A stretch of 64,000 nt of DNA, taken from contig NC_133234.1 of assembly GCF_040436345.1 (NCBI RefSeq), positions 12,151,446 through 12,215,445 on the forward strand, given 5' to 3'. The DNA is from Pagrus major (Eukaryota; Chordata; Actinopteri; Spariformes; Sparidae). This document shows, piece by piece, positions 11,401-63,516 of the stretch (within the stretch, counting starts at the first letter, position 1; the number at the start of each line of letters is the position of its first letter). Position numbers and translations under genes: made by a program. Under the pieces are notes generated by a model. That model was not told the origin of the DNA. It ran no database searches and saw only the letters and a list, made by a program, of their open reading frames with translations.

Positions 11401-13388
11401 TGAAATTGCCTCTAAGGAGAGAGATCTGTTCTTTGAGCTTGACGTAAGTGATTTCAGACTAAGTAACACAGGTGTGCAGAACATAGAGTTGTCAGTCACG
11501 ATAATAAAACTCAAGATTAACTGTTGGTGTAGGGTAAGGCTACAACTAAATTAACTGTAAAGTACAGTTACTCAAGCGCCCCATGGCTTGTTGTAAACAT
11601 GTACACAAATCTACAGAGTTGGTTTAACTGCTAACAAATGTTCTCACTCCTAAAGGCGGTCGATCACCTGGAGTCATTCATCGCCGACTGTGACCGGAGG
11701 ACAGAACTAGCCAAGAAACGCCTGGCTGAGACCCAAGAAGAGATCAGTGCTGAGGTGGCAGCAAAGGTGAGTGACAAAAGTTTTTTTTTAAACACAGGCA
11801 TAGTGATATCTGTGTATTACGTACACATATTTGGATTGTATGAGCCGCATCATACACATCAATAGTTTTGTGACAGACATATCAGATGTAAGTTGTGTTT
11901 TTTTTGTGCTGTGTTGCAGGCAGAGAAGGTTCACGAGTTGAATGAGGAAATCGGGAAGCTCCTGGCCAAGGCTGAGCAGCTTGGAGCCGAGGGCAACGTT
12001 GATGAGGCACAGAAGGTCTTGCAGGAGGTGGAGAAGGTCCGCACTAGGAAGAAGGATGCAGAGGTAAGGAAGGGGTATTATGGCGGTGCTTCCAGCTTAA
12101 TGTGGTGTGGTGATTTTCTTATATTAATGATTCCCTCCTATCATGCTTTAATGACCCCTTTTTTCTTTTCTCCTCTCAGGAAGAGTACAGAAACTCCATG
12201 CCGGCTTCCAGCTTCCAGCAGCAGAAGCTTCGGGTGTGTGAGGTGTGCTCTGCTTACCTCGGTCTCCATGACAATGACCGTCGTTTGGCCGACCATTTTG
12301 GCGGGAAACTTCACCTGGGCTTCATCCAGATCAGAGAGAAACTGGACCAATTAAAGGTAGGAGGAGTAGGTCATAAACTGTCTTTAAAATTTTAATAAAG
12401 ATAATTTCATTTTTAATTGGATTCTACGTTTTTATTTGTTCAGAAAACTGTGGTCGACAAGCAGGAAAAAAGGAACCAGGAGCGACTAAAGAGACGAGAA
12501 GAGAGGGAGAAAGAGGAAAGGATGAAGAAGAGGTGAGTCTAACGTTTAAAATCCCGGTGACAGTAATGGAAGTTTATCTGTGGAATAGCTTTGTTTATCG
12601 TCAAACTAATGGTTTTGGCATCCATTTATGTCACAGGACCAGATCACGGAGCAGAGAGCATAGAAGGTAAGAAAGATGCTCCCATCGATCTACATTTTAA
12701 ATCAACTAGTATTTCTGATTAAAGGGACTATCTGATATAAATTATAACTGATGTATCTCATTCTGTTTTTATCAGGTCCCGTTCTCGTGACCGCAGAAGG
12801 AGACGCTCACGCTCCGCATCACGAGAAAGGCGCCGTTCTCGCTCACGCTCTAGGGAGAGGAGGAGGCGGCATCGCAGCCGATCCCGCTCTCGCAGCCGAG
12901 GACACCGTCACAGCCACGAGCAGAGCTCCAAACACAAGTAAATGCAGGAAAACAGCTTACACAGTTCACACAACACCCACACAGTATGTAACTACCAAGG
13001 AACGGATCCAACACATTTGTCATGAGTGCAGCTTTTTCATATTTGATTATATAACTCAGCAGTCGAACTTCACTTTAACTGGTGACACATCTCATATTCT
13101 GTTTGTATTTTGGCAGAAGCCCTAAGTTTTTTGCAAGGGTCTTTGGTTTTCAAGATAAGCAATATATTGTACTGTAAGTTGGTAGTATATCTCTTGCTTT
13201 CTACTTTCTTCTGTCTGCTCATACATGTGTTACTTCTCTGATTATCTCACTCTATCTCGTCCCCCAGGTCGTCCAGGGACCGAGAGCGCTCCTCCAGAGA
13301 CAGGTCACGGGAGCGAGACAGAAGGGACGGTATGAACGGCAGGTCAGACTCCCGCCGGGGAGATGACAGGGACGCAGGGGACCTCTGA
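8404..13388 (+). CDS. luc7l: LUC7-like U1 snRNP splicing factor
   Basis: Ten coding exons give 362 aa: 8404-8464, 11115-11209, 11345-11443, 11656-11766, 11920-12063, 12180-12356, 12444-12532, 12637-12666, 12776-12937, 13268-13388. The N-terminus MSAQAQMRALLDQLMGTARD is nearly that recalled for human LUC7L (371 aa). Domains: a CCCH-type zinc finger at about residues 33-62 (VCKSHLLNCCPHD...ECTKIH), a coiled-coil helix (KVHELNEEIGKLLAKAEQLG), a C2H2-type finger at about 193-220 (VCEVCSAYLG...DHFGGKLH), then a C-terminal RS domain. Yeast Luc7 and its relatives act in the U1 snRNP during 5' splice-site selection in the nucleus. Intron 1 is 2.65 kb and the others are short. The 3' half, from within exon 6, is repeated downstream (15.7-18.1 kb). 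Confidence 0.96.
9365..9475 (+). repeat. Fragment of the 'CAGTGGTGGAAAGT' repeat family
   Basis: The stretch around TATATTTGCCTCAGAAATTTAGTAG in luc7l intron 1 resembles the internal part of the copy at about 22410-22470 (TATATTTGCCTCTGAAAT). It looks like a degraded internal fragment. The rest of the 2.65-kb intron shows nothing I can identify. Confidence 0.35.
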
Positions 13389-14512
13389 AGACCACACTCC
13401 CATCAATCACGACACACAACCTCCTCCTGTCTCCCTCACCTGTCTGTCCATTTATAATAACATAATGTTCCACAGTCCTTTGCCTTGACCCCTTTGTTCT
13501 CCCGCCTGCCTCCTTTTTTTGCTTTTACAGTTGATGCAGCCGAGCCAGAGTGTACCTGAAATATTGTATGGATTAAATTTTTCTAGCATCCAGATATATG
13601 AGAAGATTGTATTGGATGGGGGGATTAGTTATTGATCAGTAGTGGAGCGTATTGTAATACCTACATCTGTAATTTGGTGGCCGTCTGTATCCAATACATC
13701 TCATGTCTTGTTATAAACTACCCTATAATGATTCTACCAGAGAAAGTAAACTGATGGTCTGCTGGACTGAAGCGTAAATGTAACTAATCCATATTCTTTT
13801 ATTGATTACTGGTCTTTTGATACAGAATCTGTCTGTAAATATGTTTTGGGCCTACTGATTGTCATGGTCTGAAAACCTTTCGTCCTATCAAGTTCTTCTT
13901 TTTTTTAAAAAATCTCCTAAAGATTCTTCTCTCCTGGTAATCGACATTTGTTGTCGTACAGAGTGCAGTTCTTGAATGTCCACATTTACTTAGTTTGATA
14001 AAGCCCAGCTAAAGTTTTAGGAACACAGTTCAAAACCAAAAGGTTTTAAAGTTGCGAGAATTAGTATAAAACGTATTTCTCTCGTCCACTTTTTTCTTTA
14101 ATCAAGTTTTATTTTATGTTGACAGTAGTGAAGGGACTCTATTGATTGAGAGTTTGGCCAGTATAAGTGAGTGCTTGTTTGAAGTATCTTGTCTCATAAT
14201 TTGTTTCTATCTTGATTTCTTTTATTTAAAATAAAGAAAATAAATGGTAACTGCAAAGATAGTGTCGGCACGTGAAGCAGAAGGTTCAGAAGTGATACAT
14301 CTGACATTCAGTGCTATAACTGTACATACCTTTTATTAGTCAAGTCACGAAATTCAAATTTTAGCCCAATTTGGACAAATTCCCTTGTGAATAGATTTAT
14401 AATTGAAAACAGATTTTAATGGATGCATTGCTTTGACCTCATGTGTGAAGTCATCTGTTTATGTTCTGCTGGAAATCTTTCTTTAAAGTCTCAAATAAAA
14501 TAAAAAATCCCA
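13389..14512 (+). terminator. luc7l: luc7l 3' UTR and polyadenylation signals
   Basis: Noncoding sequence after the TGA ending at 13388. Candidate AATAAA signals lie near 14229-14240 (two close together) and near 14496 (CAAATAAAATAAA). The second is copied almost exactly in duplication unit 2 near 18025. The transcript end is inferred. Confidence 0.6.
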
Positions 14513-14690
14513 CCATTTTAATCTTTATTGTCTGCTGGTCTTTCTTGCCAAGGTCATGTCATGTTTATCATGGTTGAATTATTAGATTATATATATATTT
14601 TTTACAAAGATAAATACATTTAATTTAAGTTGGACCCTTATGTTGCATGATAGAGGGTCAAATCAGTGTTACTTTTTGGGTGAGTTAAAT

Positions 14691-15071
14691 TAAAGGGGCA
14701 CTGTAGTTTTGGAGAAGAAATTCAAACTCAGAATTTTAATATTTACAATAAATGAGGTAATGACACACACTCAGAAATATTATTTTTTCCATAACTGAAT
14801 AAACAAGCTGTTCTCAGAGGAAAATAAGGACCCCAGAACACTGTTTGAAGCTAGAAAGCTGGCAGGGTCCGCCACATATAAACAAAGTAAAACAATATGA
14901 AACTGTGTTGTCCTTTAAGGTCAGTTTGTTTATTCAGTTTATTCAGTCATGAAAATGAAGAGTTTGTTTATTTAGTTTGTTTAGGCATAAAAAAAATGTA
15001 AAAATCAGTCAATGAAGATCTTTCTCTTCTGATTAAAATCTCTTCTGCAAAAGTACATAGTGCACCTTAAA
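14691..15071 (+). mobile_element. MITE-like element, family A, copy 1
   Basis: About 380 bp with imperfect inverted ends: TTAAAGGGGCACTGTAG on the left and CATAGTGCACCTTAA on the right, flanked by TTAA-like bases. A second copy lies inverted at 58588-58964 and shares internal blocks such as AACAAGCTGTTCTCAG and the complement of GGACCCTGCCACCTTTG. It has no coding capacity. It is missing from the matching place in duplication unit 2. Confidence 0.75.
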
Positions 15072-15679
15072 GATAATACAGTATGCCCACTTGAATATTG
15101 CTCTATGGATTATATTTATATATTTTTATACTTTAATGCAGTATTGCTCTTTTCTAGACACTTTATACTGCCATTATTTCCATATTAAACATATTGAGAA
15201 CTTTCCTCAACTATTTGAGGTCATATTTGCTGACATAGGATATAATGCAAATGATTGTTTTCCCAGTCACCAGGTAGCATTTATAGAAAGATTTATAATA
15301 AATTATGCAAAATCATCTTTCCAATTCCTCAATTCTGGTTAAAATAAAATAGATAAAATAATAAATAAAATAACATCTAAAATATTATTGCTGCACTTTT
15401 CTGCAAAGAAACCTGGATGCATTTTACTGTGAGTGTTTTATTCTGAAATGATGAGAGGTTTGACATTCATAACTTGCTTTGTTTTTTTACTACATATGAT
15501 TTATGTTGAAAAGATTCCCACCATGATCAATAAAGCATCCATTTTGCAACTTCAGACGTCAATTACACTCTCAGTTTTGTCTTTGCTTGCTTTAAAAAGT
15601 TGTCCTACACTTTTACTTATCTCTCTGCACACTCAAATATTGACTCACATTAGAGTTGTGCTCACTCTATACACTTTCA

Positions 15680-17531
15680 CCTTCACCTGGGCTTCATCCA
15701 GATCAGAGACAAGCTGGACCAACTTAAGGTAGGCGCCAACTCTTCCCACCGTGAGCATGTTAAAGCTATGACTACAACAAGCCTAAATGAAATATAAATA
15801 TATGTAGGATCTTTAGGATGAGGATAAAGAGCTTCACTTCTAATTAGGTAGTGCATTTTTATTTGATCAGAAAACTGTGGTCGACAAGCAGGAGAAAATG
15901 GACCAGGAGCAACTTAAGAGAGGAGAAGAGAAGGAGAAAGAGGAAAAGAAGAGGAAGAGGTGAGTGCAGACATTTATAAAAGTTCATCTGTTGGAAAAAC
16001 AATGTGTGTTCACTGTTTAAACAAATGGTTTTGGCATCCACTTATCTCACAGGAGCAGATCACGGAGCAGAGAGCATAGCAGGTAAGAAAGCTGCTCTAT
16101 CTATCTACATTTAAATCAACCATTCTTTTCTGAATAAAGGGACTATTTGATGTGAGTTATAATTTATATGTTATTATATGTTATTTTCTGTTTTTTATCA
16201 GGTCCCGTTCTCGTGACCGCAGCAGGAGCCGCTCGCGTTCTCGCTCACGCTCCAGGGAGAGGAGGAGGAGGGATCGCAGCCGATCCCGCTCTCGCAGCCG
16301 AGGACGCCATCACCGCTCCAAACCCAAGTAAATGCAGGAAAACAGCTTACACAGTTCACACGACACCCACACAGCATGTAATTACTGTAAGCTATTGTAT
16401 TGAGAGGCCTGTATTGCAATGGTCAGGGTGACTTTAAGTTCCCCTTGTGTGCATTTGCACAGTTTATACTGGCATGTCCTTGACTTTTATTTTGAAAGGC
16501 AGCTTTTTCATATTTAATCATGTCACATAGCAGTAAAACTTCACTTTAAAGAAAGAAGAAAAAAGAATTGGCAACCTTTTGAATTCATACTCCAAACAAA
16601 TACGGGGCAAACATATTATAGTAACCGCTAGCCGCATGGCAAACTGAGCTAACTAGCTAACGACCACTGCAGTTAGCAGCAGTGGTCTAGAATGGGAGCT
16701 CAGAATGGTATTTCAAGACAGGACAGCCCGGGGCTAGCTGGTTAGCATGCTAACTTAAGTAGACACCTCTGCAAATAACGCCAAAACTCTTGTTTCTTTT
16801 GATCATTTTGTTGATCAGTTTGGTTTTTTCTAGATTTTTGTAAACTAAAAATCTCACATATTGCACCTTTAATTGGCGACACATCTCATATTCTGTCTAT
16901 ATTTTGACAGAAGCAGAAGTTTTTTGCAAGGGTCTTTGGTTTTAGCAGATTGATAAGCAGGATGTTGGACTCAAAGTTGGTAGTATATGTCATGCATTCT
17001 TCTTTCTTCTGTACGCTCGTACTTGTTACTCCCCTCATAATCTTATATTGTCTCATCACCCAGGTCATCCAAGGAAGCAGCCGAGGACGCCGTCACAGCC
17101 GTGAGCAAACCTCCAGACACAAGTAAATGCATGAAAAGAACTTACACAGTTCACACAAAGCCCACACAGTATGTAACTACACAGAAACAGCTCCAACCTT
17201 CCAATCTTCTGTGTAAATTTTGGCAGAAGCTTGAAGTTATTCAACTACATAATCTCATTGTTTTTAGTAGATATGCAGGATATTTCACTCTCTTGTTGTC
17301 ATATACAGAATCTAAATAAACTCCTTCATACTGTTGGAGTGTTTTATTTGGTTCTTTATACACTCTTGCTTTCTACTTTTTTCTGTATCTCCTACTGTCC
17401 CGTCCCCCAGGTTGTCCAGGGACCAAGAACTCCCATCCAGAGACAGGTGACGGGAGCAAGATAGGCGGGACGGAATGAATGGCAGGTCGGACTCTCGCCG
17501 GGGAGACAACAGGGTCATGGGGGACAACTGA
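15680..17531 (+). pseudogene. Truncated luc7l copy: partial exon 6 and exons 7-10
   Basis: The pieces are: partial exon 6 at 15680-15728 without its acceptor; exon 7' at 15871-15959; exon 8' at 16053-16082; exon 9' at 16202-16327 (36 bp shorter than the original, still in frame); a chimeric exon from 17064; and exon 10' from 17411. Exons 7'-9' have intact AG/GT borders, the same phases as the originals, and open frames encoding an acidic/basic helix and an RS-rich stretch. In exon 10' the copied frame meets TGA after about 12 codons, so the original C-terminus is lost. The copy has no promoter, start codon or zinc finger, so alone it is a pseudogene. Use as alternative 3' exons of luc7l by splicing from the donor at 12356 remains possible. 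Confidence 0.8.
16548..16872 (+). mobile_element. Short interspersed insertion specific to duplication unit 2
   Basis: Unit 1 reads CTTCACTTTAACTGGTGACAC at 13069-13089. Unit 2 has about 320 bp inserted at the same place, between CTTCACTTTAA and TTTAATTGGCGACAC. Ends resemble CTTTAAAG and CATATTGCACCTTTA, as in TTAA-targeting MITEs. Internal GCTAACTAGCTAACG and GTTAGCATGCTAAC motifs are typical of teleost short elements. Confidence 0.65.
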
Positions 17532-18453
17532 AGACCACACTCCCATCAATCAAGACGCACAACATCCTCCTGTCTCCCTCACCTGTCTGTCCATTTAAAA
17601 TAAGATAATGTTTCACAGTCTACAGTTTTTCTACACCCAAGCAGCACTCCATGCATTTTTTTTTTATTAATGTTTCACAGTCCTTTGCCTTGACCCCGTG
17701 GTTCTGCACCATTTAATGCAGCCGAGCCAGAGTGTCATTGAAATATCGTATGGATTCAATTTTCTAGCATCCAGATATATGAGAAGATTGGATTGGGGGA
17801 TTAGTTATTGATCAGTAGTAGAGTGTATTATAATACCTACATCTGTAATTTGGTGGCTGAATCTTGTCTCATAATTTGTTTCTATCTTGATTTTAGCCCA
17901 ATTTGGACAAATTCCCTTGTGAATAGATTTATAATTGAAAACAGATTTTTATGGATGCATTGCTTTGACCTCGTGTGTGAAGTCATCTGTTTATGTCTTG
18001 CTGGAAATCTTTCTTTAAAGTCTCAAATAAAATAAAAAATCCCACCATTTTAATCTTTATTGTCTGCTGGTCTTTCTTGCCAAGGTCATGTCATGTTTAT
18101 CATGGATGAAGTATTTTACAAAGATAAATACAGTAAGTATACACGGCAGAAATGAGACAGAAAACTATTAACATGAACATCAACAACACACATTACAAAT
18201 AGTGTACTTCAGTGTGAATATATTTCATTTGAACAGCATCTGCTTCGAGTAAAATCCTAAAGTTCTGATTCGCTGCCAAATACTTCAGTTTTAAGATGAA
18301 GTAATTACATCATAATGACACTTATGTAGCATGATGGAGAGTCGAGTCGCTGTCACGTTTGCTCTCGTGTGAATTTAATTAATTATTCAGTGACGACACC
18401 ACCAGAAGAACTCAATCCTTCATCTGACACTCTTCATGTTTAATGCCTGCTGC

Positions 18454-21400
18454 TCACAATGTGCTGCTCTCCAGTTTCAGATCAACCTTCATTTTCTGTT
18501 TCTCCATGACAGCCTCCAACTCTGTGGCTCTGCGGGCATCCTGGTGAAAGAAGAACCAAATTAGGTCCATGTGGTGTTGATGTGGCCTACAAGACTGGCT
18601 ACAGACCTCTTCTTTGATGAAACAGCTTCTTAGCAAAGACCTTATTCAAAGTTTCTGAAAGTAAATTCTGTCTTTGGTGATCAGTAAATTATGCCAAGGA
18701 TTCTTTTCTCATGAAAGATTTATATGAAAGTCATGTCAATAGTTCATTTTCCAATTTAGAATAACATATCTAAAAACCATAATTGATGCACTCTTCTCCC
18801 AAGAAGCCTGGATGCATTTTACTGTGAGTTCATGACTCTGAAATCAACTGCCAAAAGAGGTTTGATATGATTAACATGAAAAAACACTCAGCAACACCAA
18901 TTAAGCTTAAAATTTGCAAGCTTATTTATTATTCACCATTTTGTCTGTCTGTGCTTGCTGAGAAAAGTTGTTCTACACTTTTCCTGATTCTTCCCCACAC
19001 TCAAATATTGACTGATATTTGTTTTGTGCTTACTCAATACCTTTGTCACTGATAAGCCGATAAAACTGGGAAATAAGGTCAGGCTATAAAGTGGCTGTAA
19101 TTTTCCTTTAAATTACCTCCAGCAGTGCTTTCTGCACTGTGAGCTGGCTGTACACTCTGGCGCCCTCATCTGGAATCACAGCTCGTAGCTCCTCCTTGTT
19201 GAGGGAAAAGAGCTGGGCACCTGTCAGCACTCCCAAACATGTCACCGTCCTGAGGGACAAAACATACAAAAAGACCTCAGAGTCAGAATCTAGACAATCA
19301 AAACTCGTTGAGCTTCTCAACGAGTTTTGAGCGTTTTCTAAGCGTCCCATAACAATATTATCTATCCAAGCATAACCAGGAAATGTACACTGATAAAGGA
19401 AACCTTTTTCCTTTTAAGCTATCAGTGTTAAAGGAAGGACCTTTTAAAAAATGCATGACATTGTACGGGCAGCACTCCCGGTGTGTAAACAGGTCTGAAG
19501 TCAGCAGTTGTTTCGTCACTCACGGTTCACTGAAGCCCTTCCCTCGGAGCCACTCGGCCACCTCGTCTGGAGGAGAGTGGTAGTCCAGAGGAACAGAGGT
19601 CTCCGAGGAGCGAGGGATGACCAGAGGTTTGTTCAGATTGGCCTTTCCGTTTGTCAGCCTGTGGAGCAGCTCGTCATTCACCAACATGACTGAAAAGATT
19701 CACAGTGACAGAAAGAATTTTAACATTTAAGCCTTTACATGACCAAATGGTAACTTAGCTACATGACTGAGAGGGAAAAACTAAAGACAAGCATTTCATT
19801 CCCACAGCAGAAGTCAGTGGTGGAAAGTAACTAAATACATTTACTGAAGTTTAGTTACTCTACTTTATTATTTCTATTTTCTGTTTTCTATATACATATA
19901 TATGAGTAACATTTTTAATGCAAGACTTTTACCTGTAAACACTGTACACTATATTCATGTGAATTTTACTTACATAATACATAATTAAGTACTAGTTTAT
20001 GTGTAGTTTTTTTTTTTTAGTACTATTTTTTTTTTGTTAATCTTTTTATTTTTGCTTATGTCACTTTCTTAATAGGCCGGCTGTGGTGACATTACACATT
20101 GACAGACCTTTAAGTCTTAAGAACATTTTCTTTGGAACATCTAGCGGCTTTTGCCAACTTTTATCATTTATTTGGAGAGATTTGGTTATTTTCTATGTTA
20201 AATAAACTAATTTAAGCTCAGTTTTCTCATTCTTTAACTGTTTTGGACAGATCCCTTCAGTAACATGAACAAAAAACAAATGATCTTTTTCATTTTTAAG
20301 AAAATACCACTTAATTAGGGAATTCAGGCATCATCTCCACTCCTGTCCATCCAATATTTGTCTTCTCTGACTCACACATACACAATGACTGTTCCAGAAA
20401 CAGTCTTGGACTTTAAAGCTCCATATATTCAACCCATCTTATAACAGCATTTATAGGACACACCCATACACCTTACACAAACATATTGTTCAGTACCTTT
20501 ATTATCTGTGTCATCTCGAGATGGTATATGTTGGTTGTATGCTGGTAAGCTGTGCGGGCGCTGCTGGGAGGGGGAGGGGTAGGGAGAGTGGGCCTGGTGT
20601 GGAGCAGGAGGGCTGGGCGGGATTGTGGAGAAAGTCTTGGCGAGGGGCGGCGGAGCTGGAGCCTGGTGGAGCGGAGAGAAGACAACACTGGAATTAACTC
20701 AGGTACTCCTGCAGGTGAGATAATACTTTTGTGCTTGTAAGAGTTGTGCGTGTGTGTGTGCCTGTGTGTGTGTGTTTTTGTGTCTTACACTGGGGGGTCT
20801 GTTGGTGACGGGGCTGTCTATGTGAGTCACAGGTTCCAGGATGTTGAAGGGTACAAACCCGATCTGGTTGAAGCGATTACGGACCTTCCACCAGCGCTTG
20901 GATGATTCGATCACCTGTCAGACGTAGGAGACATCATTATGCAAATGATACATGACGTACACTTTTATACACGCTTCACCGTGGGTTCCTGAATGCACCA
21001 TGAGAGCTGTGTGATTTTCATTACCTCGAGTGTCTCCCCCTGCTGCACTGAAAGCTCAGTGCTGTTCCTGGCTATGAAGTCGTATGAGCAGCTGTAGAGT
21101 CTCTCAGACTCTGGTGGGAGTGAGCTGCTATCTCTGAAGGAAAAAGGAGACAGACACTGTTATTCACACAGTCAGGGGTAAATTGTTGGGGCTAAGTGGT
21201 TTGCTTGTTAAAGGTGACCTACGTTTCATCACTGATGTGGGAGGGAGGTCCGACTGGCTGAGGTGGTTGTTGCTGCAATGCGAGAAAAGATAGACATTCA
21301 TGACTTTACAGCTCACACAGCTATCAACAAAATGGGTAAGGTGTCATCATACAGAGGGGATGTGGGTGGTTACCAAAATAAAAGACTCAAAGTTTGAGTT

Positions 21401-28530: not shown

Positions 28531-29361
28531 GTGTCTCAGCAGAGCTGCAGGTATCTCCCTCCTCACTTTTCTCTCTCTTCTATTGAAACCTTTTACAGAG
28601 CAGAGGTGTGTCACCTTGCACAGCCCTGCCCTCTACCACTCCACCTTAGAGATAAAAATATTTACTCAGTCTCTCACCTGTTGGGACACATTGGGGAAAA
28701 ATGTCAAGGCTGAGGTCATGTCTTTTGTGTTCTCTCTCTTGGAATTTGTGATTGATTTTTAGCAACCCGGAGAGAGTTTAAACCTTACATTTAATGAATA
28801 AAGGCTGATCCTAATATTTTCTTTTAGACTTTTTAACAAATAGAATAATAAAGATGAACCATTTACTTTCCAGAATATTATTCCAGCAGTGTGGAGAAGG
28901 GTTTTGATCAGCGTTTTTAAGCCTTAATGTCAAGAAATAAAATAAAAAACAACAGAAAACACTTTTCTAACCAGTTTCAGCAAGTGCTGACAGGGGCAAT
29001 CTCTGGCATCCATACATGGAGGTGAAAAAATGGGAAAGTGGGGTGTCACATTTCACAACAGTCCTAAACAGGAGGTAGACAAGGCCCCATTTTATCCTCC
29101 AATAGAGGAGATAGGCGGAGTCAGGTGAAGCTGGACAAGCGGGGGTTTCCATTCCTCACTTGACTTTGAGTTTGAGGACGTTTGGGATCATTTTCCAGGG
29201 ATCTCTGCTTTTTGTGTCACAAGGTATTTATACGTTATTATAGATGCATGACATTATTTCCAAGCGCGTAGGAGCATACTGTTGTGTTTGATTAAGTCGT
29301 GGCAGGAGACTTGTGTGTTTTGACTCCAACACAAGCATACGTGGCATACAGCGTGTGTCAA

Positions 29362-29432
29362 TGTGTGTGTGTGTGTGTGTGTGTATGTGTGTGTGTGTGT
29401 GGGTGTGTGTGTGTGTGTGCGCGCGCGCGCGG
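29362..29432. repeat. (GT)n/(GC)n microsatellite
   Basis: An interrupted GT run of about 58 bases passes into a short GC run. Such alternating purine-pyrimidine tracts can adopt Z-DNA. Confidence 0.9.
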
Positions 29433-32709: not shown

Positions 32710-35700
32710 ATGGAGAAGCAGCCTTTGCCAACTGATGATGACACGACAGGAACTGCAGAGTCCAGGATTGACGGCTACGTTGGTGAGGAGAACCAGCAGG
32801 GCTCGTCTGAGCCTGCCGCTCGAGCAGGATGGAACAGTAAAATAGAGTATTTTTTGGCTCAGGTGGGATTCAGTGTCGGGCTCGGCAACGTCTGGCGATT
32901 TCCATATTTGTGCCATCAAAATGGAGGAGGTGAGTACCGATGATTATTATTGTTATTGTTATTATCATCTGTGTTAGATGGCTGCTACAAGTTTGGGTCC
33001 TGTGGGACCAAACACAAATATTGTGTGTGCAGGATAGACAGTATTGACTCAAATGAGAGTGGGTAGTCAGTGTCATCCTCACAGGACGTGCATGTGGTGA
33101 AAAAGAGACCACATTAATATTATAACTATGCATATAAATGCATTAACTACCAAATGTATGCCTCTGAATCTGAGCTGTACGCTATGAACTAACACTGAAA
33201 CTAAACTGAACACTGCTGCTCTAAAGTTCCCACATCTGGTGTTTGTCTGTTGCCAGGAGAAACATAAACTCCAAGGGAAAATACAGACACAGTCCATAAC
33301 AATTTAATCAATTTTGGGTTCAGACTGGCACAAGTTGAAGGTGTTTAAACCATAATGTAATAATGCTTTTTGTAAGTTTATGGAACAGTTGAGGTGCTGT
33401 GTTTGCAATTTTCTTGATAAAAAAACAAATCTGCTAGGGAGGATAGGAAGCATAGATATAATATATTTTCAAAAGAACATTTTGTCCTGCAATCAGAACG
33501 GTTCTCGTCCTACAGAGTATCAAAGCTCCTTTACTAACTGAGTGCTGGTCACCTTTTATCCTCAGGAGCGTTTCTCTTCCTGTACGTGCTGCTCATGCTG
33601 GTTGTGGGCATTCCCTTGTTCTTCCTGGAGCTTGCAGCCGGTCAGGCCATCAGACAGGGCAGCATCGGAGTCTGGAAGTACATCTCCCCCAGGCTTGCAG
33701 GGATTGGCTACTCCAGCTGTGTGGTAAGAAACTGATTGTTAAATGATTGACCCACCTTCTAATAGTATTAGATCGTTCAGTATATGATGTTAGGTGCATT
33801 TCAGGTGCCATTATAATTCTGCTTCAATCAGTAATTTTTTTGTTTTCCATTTGCCCGTCTAGAAAACCACATTCTTAGTGCTGTATGTGTATTATCCAAT
33901 TGAATCTATCCTTTAATACATTATGTAATTTTTTTACTAACTTGATAATCCTGTTGTCCTCAGGTGTGCTTCTTTGTGGCTCTGTACTACAATGTGATCC
34001 TTGCATGGAGTCTTTTCTATCTTGGGAACTCATTCCAGTACCCTTTACCTTGGCAGCAGTGTCCTAAAGAGGGGAATGTAACAGGTAAACACGCAGCATT
34101 AAGGTTCAAAACTGACAAGACATGAGCAATTATTTAATTGTTAATGTATGAGTTGTAGTTAATCATCATTTTTTTCCTCTTTACACCAGTAAAAGAATGT
34201 GAAAAGAGCTCCGCCACATCGTATTTCTGGTACCGCAAAGCTTTGGATATCACAGACTCGATTGATGAGACAGGTTCTTTCAACCCTTACATCGTCTGCT
34301 GTCTGCTGGCGGCCTGGACCATTGTGTGCCTGGGAATGTTCAAGGGTATCAAGACCTCTGTCAAGGTAACTGTGATCTGTTGTGGCTTTCAGTGTTGATT
34401 TTACTGTCAGTGAAGCTGTGGCTTTAAAAGAATTTGGTATTTTTTGCTTATTTTTAACAACTGTCAGATAATCAGGAGCTATAAACTGCAACTACTGGAC
34501 TGAAGCATTTTTAAATAGATTTTTAATAGATGAGTTATTACTTCAAACATTGGATTTAAATTAATGGCATAAATATGTTATATACATTATGATATTCATG
34601 TAGGGCGGTTCATACATGCAGATGTGTATGCATTTTTAAAGGGAAAGGTTGGTTTGATATGAAAAATAAGTATGTTCCATGGTGTTAAGTTCATTTCATC
34701 ACATAACAGTGTTTACTTTTGGACCAGCTGAGCAGAAGACCGAGCATTAAATGAAAAAAACGTAAAAGGAAGCCCCGTTTTACTGAAAAACGTAATCACA
34801 AAAATGCATTGCATGTTTCATTGTTTGGACATTCTGGGTCCTCAGTTCTCAGTCCAAATCCCAGTCATGTGTTGGGCTTAGATTTCAGTGTTTGCTGTGC
34901 GTGTGGAGTTTCTGGAATGTCTGGCTTAGGTGTTGACCCAGTTCAAATGGCACAATCCACATTACACAACTTCCCCCAGTACTTTTAAGAAGTAAACATA
35001 CTTTTTTTTAAAAAACTACAGTGTTGTTTTGTTTTTCCTATCACACAAGTTCTACAAACATACCATGTGGAAAATATTCTTTTCTGTGTTTTATGTTCAA
35101 GCTAACATCTTAGTTGAAGTTTTATCCCACTAAGGCTGACATCAGGTGTTTCACGCAATTACTGCCTTAAGCACTTGGCATCTCAATTACAGGGGCCATA
35201 TGTTCAGTGTTTAAGAAGCAGCAGATTAGATGAAACGTCAGTTATTATCTCTGTGGGGAAAATTGGTTGTTATAGCTACAAAATTAGTAGGATTCAGAAG
35301 GGAACAAACTAAAAGACAGTGTACTTAAGCATAAGGAATGTAACAAAGCAATTTAAGGATAAGAGACCGTGGGGATGCAGCTTACTAACAAGAAAAATGG
35401 AAATTTGTAGTGCATTTATTCCTGTAAATATTTGGCAAAAAAGAGAGGGAGCCAGCTCAAGAGAGGTTCTCCCAGCGTACCTGTGCATACAGATAGAAAC
35501 AAATAACTGGCTTTCACTGCTAGCTTGTTAATTAAATAATTTTTTCTCATTTCGTAGGTGATGTACTTCTCCTCCATCTTCCCCTATGTGGTGCTGTTCT
35601 GCTTCCTTGTCCGAGGACTCCTGCTGGATGGGGCCTTAGAGGGAATCAGCTACATGTTCTACCCCAAGGTATCTGCACTTAATATGTCTGCAGTGTAGAG

Positions 35701-48604: not shown

Positions 48605-63516
<14,912 letters not shown>

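Follow-up and report, generated by a model that had tools for sequence, protein, structure and literature searches.

The window analysed here, the whole 64-kb stretch at C20:12151446-12215445, carries the tail-to-tail ends of two convergent genes, luc7l on the plus strand and an EPS8-like gene on the minus strand. The luc7l product contains the LUC7 domain PF03194 (E 1.9e-74), placing the gene in the LUC7 family. The minus-strand product matched SAM_3 (75.2 bits) and SH3_1 (45.2 bits) above cut-off, together with a PTB fragment (25.9, slightly below its cut-off of 27), and also matched solved structures of FLJ21935 and EPS8 (two). The SAM_3 and SH3 matches support its annotation as EPS8-like, and we leave the paralogue assignment (eps8l1) at family level. 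Past the EPS8-like gene, an open frame at 32710-32943 (+) matches the sodium:neurotransmitter symporter family (SNF/SLC6). Elsewhere in the window, the stretches 29353-29431, 49532-49601 and 54851-54945 share strong mutual repeat matches, the first reading as a CA/TG-type repeat in its open frames. A second luc7l-like gene lies on contig C1 (C1:19826000-19841800).

Self-BLAST and repeat finding over the window returned a chain of direct matches linking 12309-15677 to 15681-19044. These data confirm that a genuine, somewhat complex tandem duplication spans the two convergent 3' ends, with the following main features.

12309-15677, plus strand: unit 1, luc7l from a partial exon 6 through exon 10 plus the 3' UTR, followed by a decayed EPS8-like 3' end and intron
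12776-12937, plus strand: luc7l exon 9 in unit 1; with intron 9 left unspliced, the frame would end at a TAA just past the exon, giving a putative short form
13268-13388, plus strand: intact luc7l exon 10 in unit 1, stop codon at 13386-13388
15681-19044, plus strand: unit 2, a luc7l relic from a partial exon 6 through exon 10 plus the 3' UTR, followed by the last EPS8-like exon on the minus strand and a portion of the EPS8-like intron
18454-18540, minus strand: EPS8-like last coding exon, in unit 2 only, open frame ending at 18454

A sequence-only reading of this DNA had described two abutting direct copies of about 3.4 kb, starting in luc7l exon 6 and ending in an EPS8-like intron, and the match ends bear this out to within 1-2 bases. 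The left breakpoint falls within luc7l exon 6 (12180-12356) and the right one within an EPS8-like intron, upstream, in the EPS8-like sense, of the last exon. The leftmost match (12309-12361/15681-15733) has an offset of 3372 and the rightmost (15366-15677/18757-19044) an offset of 3391, and these two terminal matches alone, with E-values of 2e-17 and 7e-24, are more than chance would give. A continuous off-diagonal at about 3.37 kb had also been expected; the chain of direct matches is there, with 3372 at its left end, but no single offset holds, the values along unit 2 being 3372, 3427, 3471 and 3794, then 4185, 4110, 4172 and 4143 in a nested copy, then 3675, 3532, 3684 and 3391. Read in unit 1 coordinates, unit 2 consists of 12309-12361, 12406-12995, 13028-13078, an insertion (16550-16866) and 13073-13279, steps back to 12892-13012 (the nested copy, with pieces 13094-13131 and 13191-13214), and ends with 13243-13681, 14186-14218, 14358-14583, 14633-14676 and 15366-15677. 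The two adjacent direct copies thus keep the same order, as in a tandem segmental duplication, with the nested copy breaking it once. All comparisons below use segment-wise alignments, because the nested copy misaligns the middle of a whole-unit global alignment.

The copies appear confined to this locus, and are not dispersed repeats. When 1192 bases from 12309 were searched against the assembly (786 Mb, 25 contigs), 8 of the 8 returned matches lay within the locus, and the 226-base core 14358-14583 returned two places, both of them here; genome-wide confinement rests on these two unit 1 stretches, and the match counts are lower bounds. The core as a dispersed repeat was rejected, no third place being returned in the 786 Mb, with counts again as lower bounds.

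The convergent layout was proposed to have spared both genes, and this is upheld by the sequence: the proximal luc7l tail in unit 1 is intact up to the stop at 13386-13388, as had been claimed for the tail that luc7l uses, and the EPS8-like last exon assigned to 18454-18540 has an open frame in unit 2, the analysis of that gene covering its last exons plus a number of domain pieces. Neither gene is broken because each breakpoint lies in a gene upstream of that gene's own tail.

Three further features depart from a plain copy.

17077-17386, plus strand: second, nested copy of sequence from the exon 9/intron 9 region, matching the three nested pieces listed above and fused to the start of an exon 10 copy (17064)
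14689-15064, plus strand: insertion in unit 1 only, with imperfect terminal inverted repeats (noted with no shuffle control) and an inverted second copy at 58591-58965, 84% identical
16550-16866, plus strand: insertion in unit 2 only, flanked by two CTTTAA copies

The unit 1 insertion is probably a small DNA-transposon-like element. At 17064-17123, unit 2 carries a chimeric exon in which an exon 10 acceptor and first bases are joined to exon 9 sequence, with loss of the original frame. Private differences among unit 1, the first unit 2 copy and the nested copy number 1, 6 and 6 (92 gap-free columns, 12 dropped), so that, small as these numbers are, the slowly evolving version is that of unit 1. 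The two copies inside unit 2 have next to no common history separate from that of unit 1, indicating that the nested copy and the main event are of about equal age, which makes it probable that the duplication was itself complex. No long homology was seen by eye at the main and nested junctions, and crossing-over between repeats is therefore not suggested.

We then measured how far the copies have drifted apart. Outside a short near-identical island in the 3' UTR, 249 of 1598 aligned sites differ, compared with 10 of 349 inside it (259/1947 in total); these counts drop unit 2 columns 17062-17411 (nested copy) and non-aligning stretches, and no site is counted twice. K80 distances are 0.16-0.27 in introns 6-8, 0.15-0.20 in the intron 9 pieces, 0.07-0.12 in exons 6-9, 0.147 in the first part of the 3' UTR and 0.229 at the right end. 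Exons diverge by about 9% and introns by about 18%, which fits introns that are free in both copies and exons that are free in one copy and constrained in the other. Exon 10, with a K80 of 0.226, stands above that constrained/free pattern.

Teleost neutral rates are a few per billion years, which would put the age of the duplication, as a rough estimate, at tens of millions of years. The event had been called fairly recent, and the distances in introns 6-8 and at the right end contradict this. We consider it extremely improbable that the duplication is recent, or that the assembly duplicated a single locus: a 97% identical block alone speaks for such a reading, against the 249 of 1598 differing sites outside the island and the insertions and deletions specific to each unit. 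A recent duplication was set aside on these grounds. Since the copies have diverged and each has its own indels, an assembly artefact is very unlikely.

What has become of the spare tails? The unit 2 copies of the luc7l exons are the following.

15871-15959, plus strand: copy of luc7l exon 7, open, splice-site dinucleotides present
16053-16082, plus strand: copy of exon 8, open, splice-site dinucleotides present
16202-16327, plus strand: copy of exon 9, open, shorter than in unit 1 by 24 and 12 nt, neither loss disturbing the frame
17411-17531, plus strand: copy of exon 10, in-frame TGA after 13 residues, no indel

Over exons 6 (part) to 9, units 1 and 2 differ by 19 nonsynonymous and 7 synonymous changes (Ka 0.089, Ks 0.117, Ka/Ks about 0.76). 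The copy kept its introns and is not a processed (retrocopied) pseudogene. Its exon 10 differs from that of unit 1 at 23 of 120 positions, more than the other exons, with a single in-frame stop ahead of the original one. The Ka/Ks near neutrality and the TGA in the exon 10 copy favour the view that the spare luc7l tail is a near-neutral relic. Alternatively, unit 2 might serve as a distal alternative tail, unit 1 exon 6 being spliced to unit 2 exon 7 to give a Luc7l protein whose different tail would end at the short-form stop. In keeping with this idea, the unit 2 exons 7, 8 and 9 have open frames in the right phase, with splice-site dinucleotides at their edges; the two deletions in exon 9 each have a length divisible by three, and the joined frame runs to a stop. 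However, the excess of amino-acid-changing over silent differences gives a Ka/Ks that is not below expectation for one free copy, and the exon 10 copy is interrupted by its TGA. Moreover, the spare luc7l sequence has drifted by about 6.5% (6/92 three-way columns) to 8.9% (26/293 coding sites), and survival of frame and splice sites is unsurprising at a drift of 6-9%. We regard the alternative tail as improbable.

The reciprocal copy, that of the EPS8-like last exon in unit 1, is undetectable. A search for a partner of 18454-18560 in the rest of unit 1 gave a score of 16, below the shuffle mean of 19.2 and reached by 478 of 500 shuffles, and 15065-15235 showed no detectable alignment to 18361-18681 (498 of 500 shuffles reach the score). 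Further right, 15220-15366 can still be aligned to 18660-18757 (0 of 500 shuffles reach the score). When the flanks of the unit 1 insertion were joined, an alignment extended weakly to 18455, but the part past the insertion was no better than shuffles. The claim that the far copies persist as relics thus holds for luc7l but not for the EPS8-like exon.

We next turned to the near-identical island and its poly(A) signals.

13582-14583, plus strand: island in unit 1, pieces 13582-13681, 14186-14218 and 14358-14583
17764-18115, plus strand: island in unit 2, 10 differences in 349 aligned sites, 504 (net 501) and 139 bases absent
14494-14529, both strands: poly(A) signals in unit 1, plus-strand AATAAA at 14494 and 14499, minus-strand AATAAA with first base at 14529
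18026, 18031 (plus) and 18061 (minus): equivalent AATAAA signals in unit 2

The few differences previously noted by eye between the 3' UTR blocks are real, with 6 of 226 positions differing between the cores 14358-14583 and 17890-18115, but this 97% block does not stand for the duplication as a whole. Within the island, 14467-14573 comprises 107 bases with zero differences, centred on the two-strand poly(A) signals. The 504 and 139 bases that unit 2 lacks lie between island pieces in unit 1, and a run of 116 aligned sites with no difference spans both gaps, at one of which three unit 2 bases (17858-17860) are unaligned. An assembly search with the longer unit 1-only segment, 13682-14185, returned its own place alone; it was rejected as a dispersed insertion, and its deletion from unit 2 is favoured for that reason. 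The gaps were also rejected as introns missing from a spliced copy, their boundaries, judged by eye, not fitting GT-AG.

Such local identity goes beyond chance, as is typical of a gene conversion tract. Column shuffles produced windows of 100-350 aligned sites as clean as the island in 0 of 2000 trials, and shuffles of 20-column blocks did so in 3/2000 (200 sites), 0/2000 (300) and 0/2000 (350). The probability of 10 or fewer differences in 349 sites is 0.0018 at 6.5% drift and 5.8e-6 at 8.9%, these binomial values being post hoc, since the island edges were set after viewing the data, and the shuffles correcting for position only. Given these probabilities, the island has too few differences to be explained by free decay of a copy.

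On balance, we lean towards local gene conversion between the copies, in preference to selection on both, as the process that made the island alike. As many as 269 of its 349 sites, with 8 of the differences, lie past 18061, the AATAAA that comes first after the EPS8-like stop codon; in unit 2 this part has no evident user, which supports conversion. So does the clean run of 116 sites across both gaps, which fits a whole tract made identical, not only functional sites. Gap openings relate to substitutions as 74:249 outside the island (a count that leaves out gaps between segments) and as 1:10 within segments inside it, or about 3:10 with the two long gaps; once these are counted, the ratios are alike inside and outside, which again favours conversion. 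By contrast, conversion needs two large later deletions in unit 2, and the 107 clean bases centre on the two-strand signals, as selection also predicts. The earlier suggestion of an event either recent or followed by exchange thus fails in its first part and is preferred in its second, for the 3' UTR island only.

A possible but less probable account is that the ancestral convergent genes had one compact two-strand poly(A) region, of which the copy in unit 1 would now serve luc7l and that in unit 2 the EPS8-like gene, with purifying selection acting on both. Plus- and minus-strand AATAAA signals indeed fall within 36 bases, an arrangement repeated in unit 2, and zero differences surround them over 107 bases; a further minus-strand AATAAA at 17668, if used, would put the whole unit 2 island in the EPS8-like 3' UTR. 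The 269 sites past the first signal argue against this account, as do three negative results. With blastn, the 15.8 kb surrounding the luc7l-like paralogue of contig C1 gave no island match; Rfam yielded no family for the window at gathering scores and none for the island up to an E of 5; and no unusual RNA fold was seen for unit 1 plus or unit 2 minus (z-scores 1.93 and -0.72). Two weak Rfam matches, below their gathering scores, fall outside the island. Deep conservation with the C1 paralogue and an RNA family or structure were both rejected as explanations of the island on these results. An exact 35-base island pattern gave 0 matches in viral contigs, which is uninformative. We consider it rather unlikely that a shared two-strand poly(A) module was duplicated and divided between the genes, selection holding single-user copies about 97% identical while their surroundings are about 15% apart.

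Taking conversion as the preferred reading, the following course of events may be proposed. Long ago, a 3.4-kb stretch over the tail ends of luc7l (plus) and the convergent EPS8-like gene (minus) was duplicated in tandem, probably in a complex event, for instance replication template switching. Each gene body still reads into a complete tail copy of its own, as the sequence shows. The spare luc7l tail then drifted near-neutrally, and the spare EPS8-like last exon was lost, with the transposon-like insertion nearby. Later, the island of about 350 bases would have been homogenised by conversion between the neighbouring copies, after which unit 2 would have lost 504 and 139 bases inside it.

This locus illustrates clearly, in nature, how two genes in a convergent layout can both survive intact when the two breakpoints of a duplication fall inside them; it also exemplifies local homogenisation, or constraint, acting on a duplicated 3' end. 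Were the selection reading true, the locus would further offer a natural way to test whether a private terminator is necessary for convergent genes. A literature search found no description of this duplication in titles or abstract openings among the matches listed. The event is ordinary in kind for a genome change, the near-identical poly(A) island being its main unusual feature. Tandem (segmental) duplication of parts of genes, followed by decay of the redundant copy, is a known kind of event, and the locus resembles it in its direct tandem copies, its intact and relic partners and its later indels. It differs in that the breakpoints lie in two convergent genes, both left with a complete 3' end, and in carrying a nested copy roughly as old as the duplication itself. 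Gene conversion between tandem duplicates is likewise a known process, matched here by a short high-identity tract in otherwise diverged copies; unlike in that process, the tract is a 3' UTR/poly(A) region with two long gaps, and donor and recipient are indistinguishable. Finally, convergent gene pairs with one common polyadenylation region are described in Arabidopsis (PMC3032780). The present locus is similar in having opposite-strand poly(A) signals in one short stretch, whereas it has two copies of the stretch, one beside each gene, whose use is suggested by the signals.
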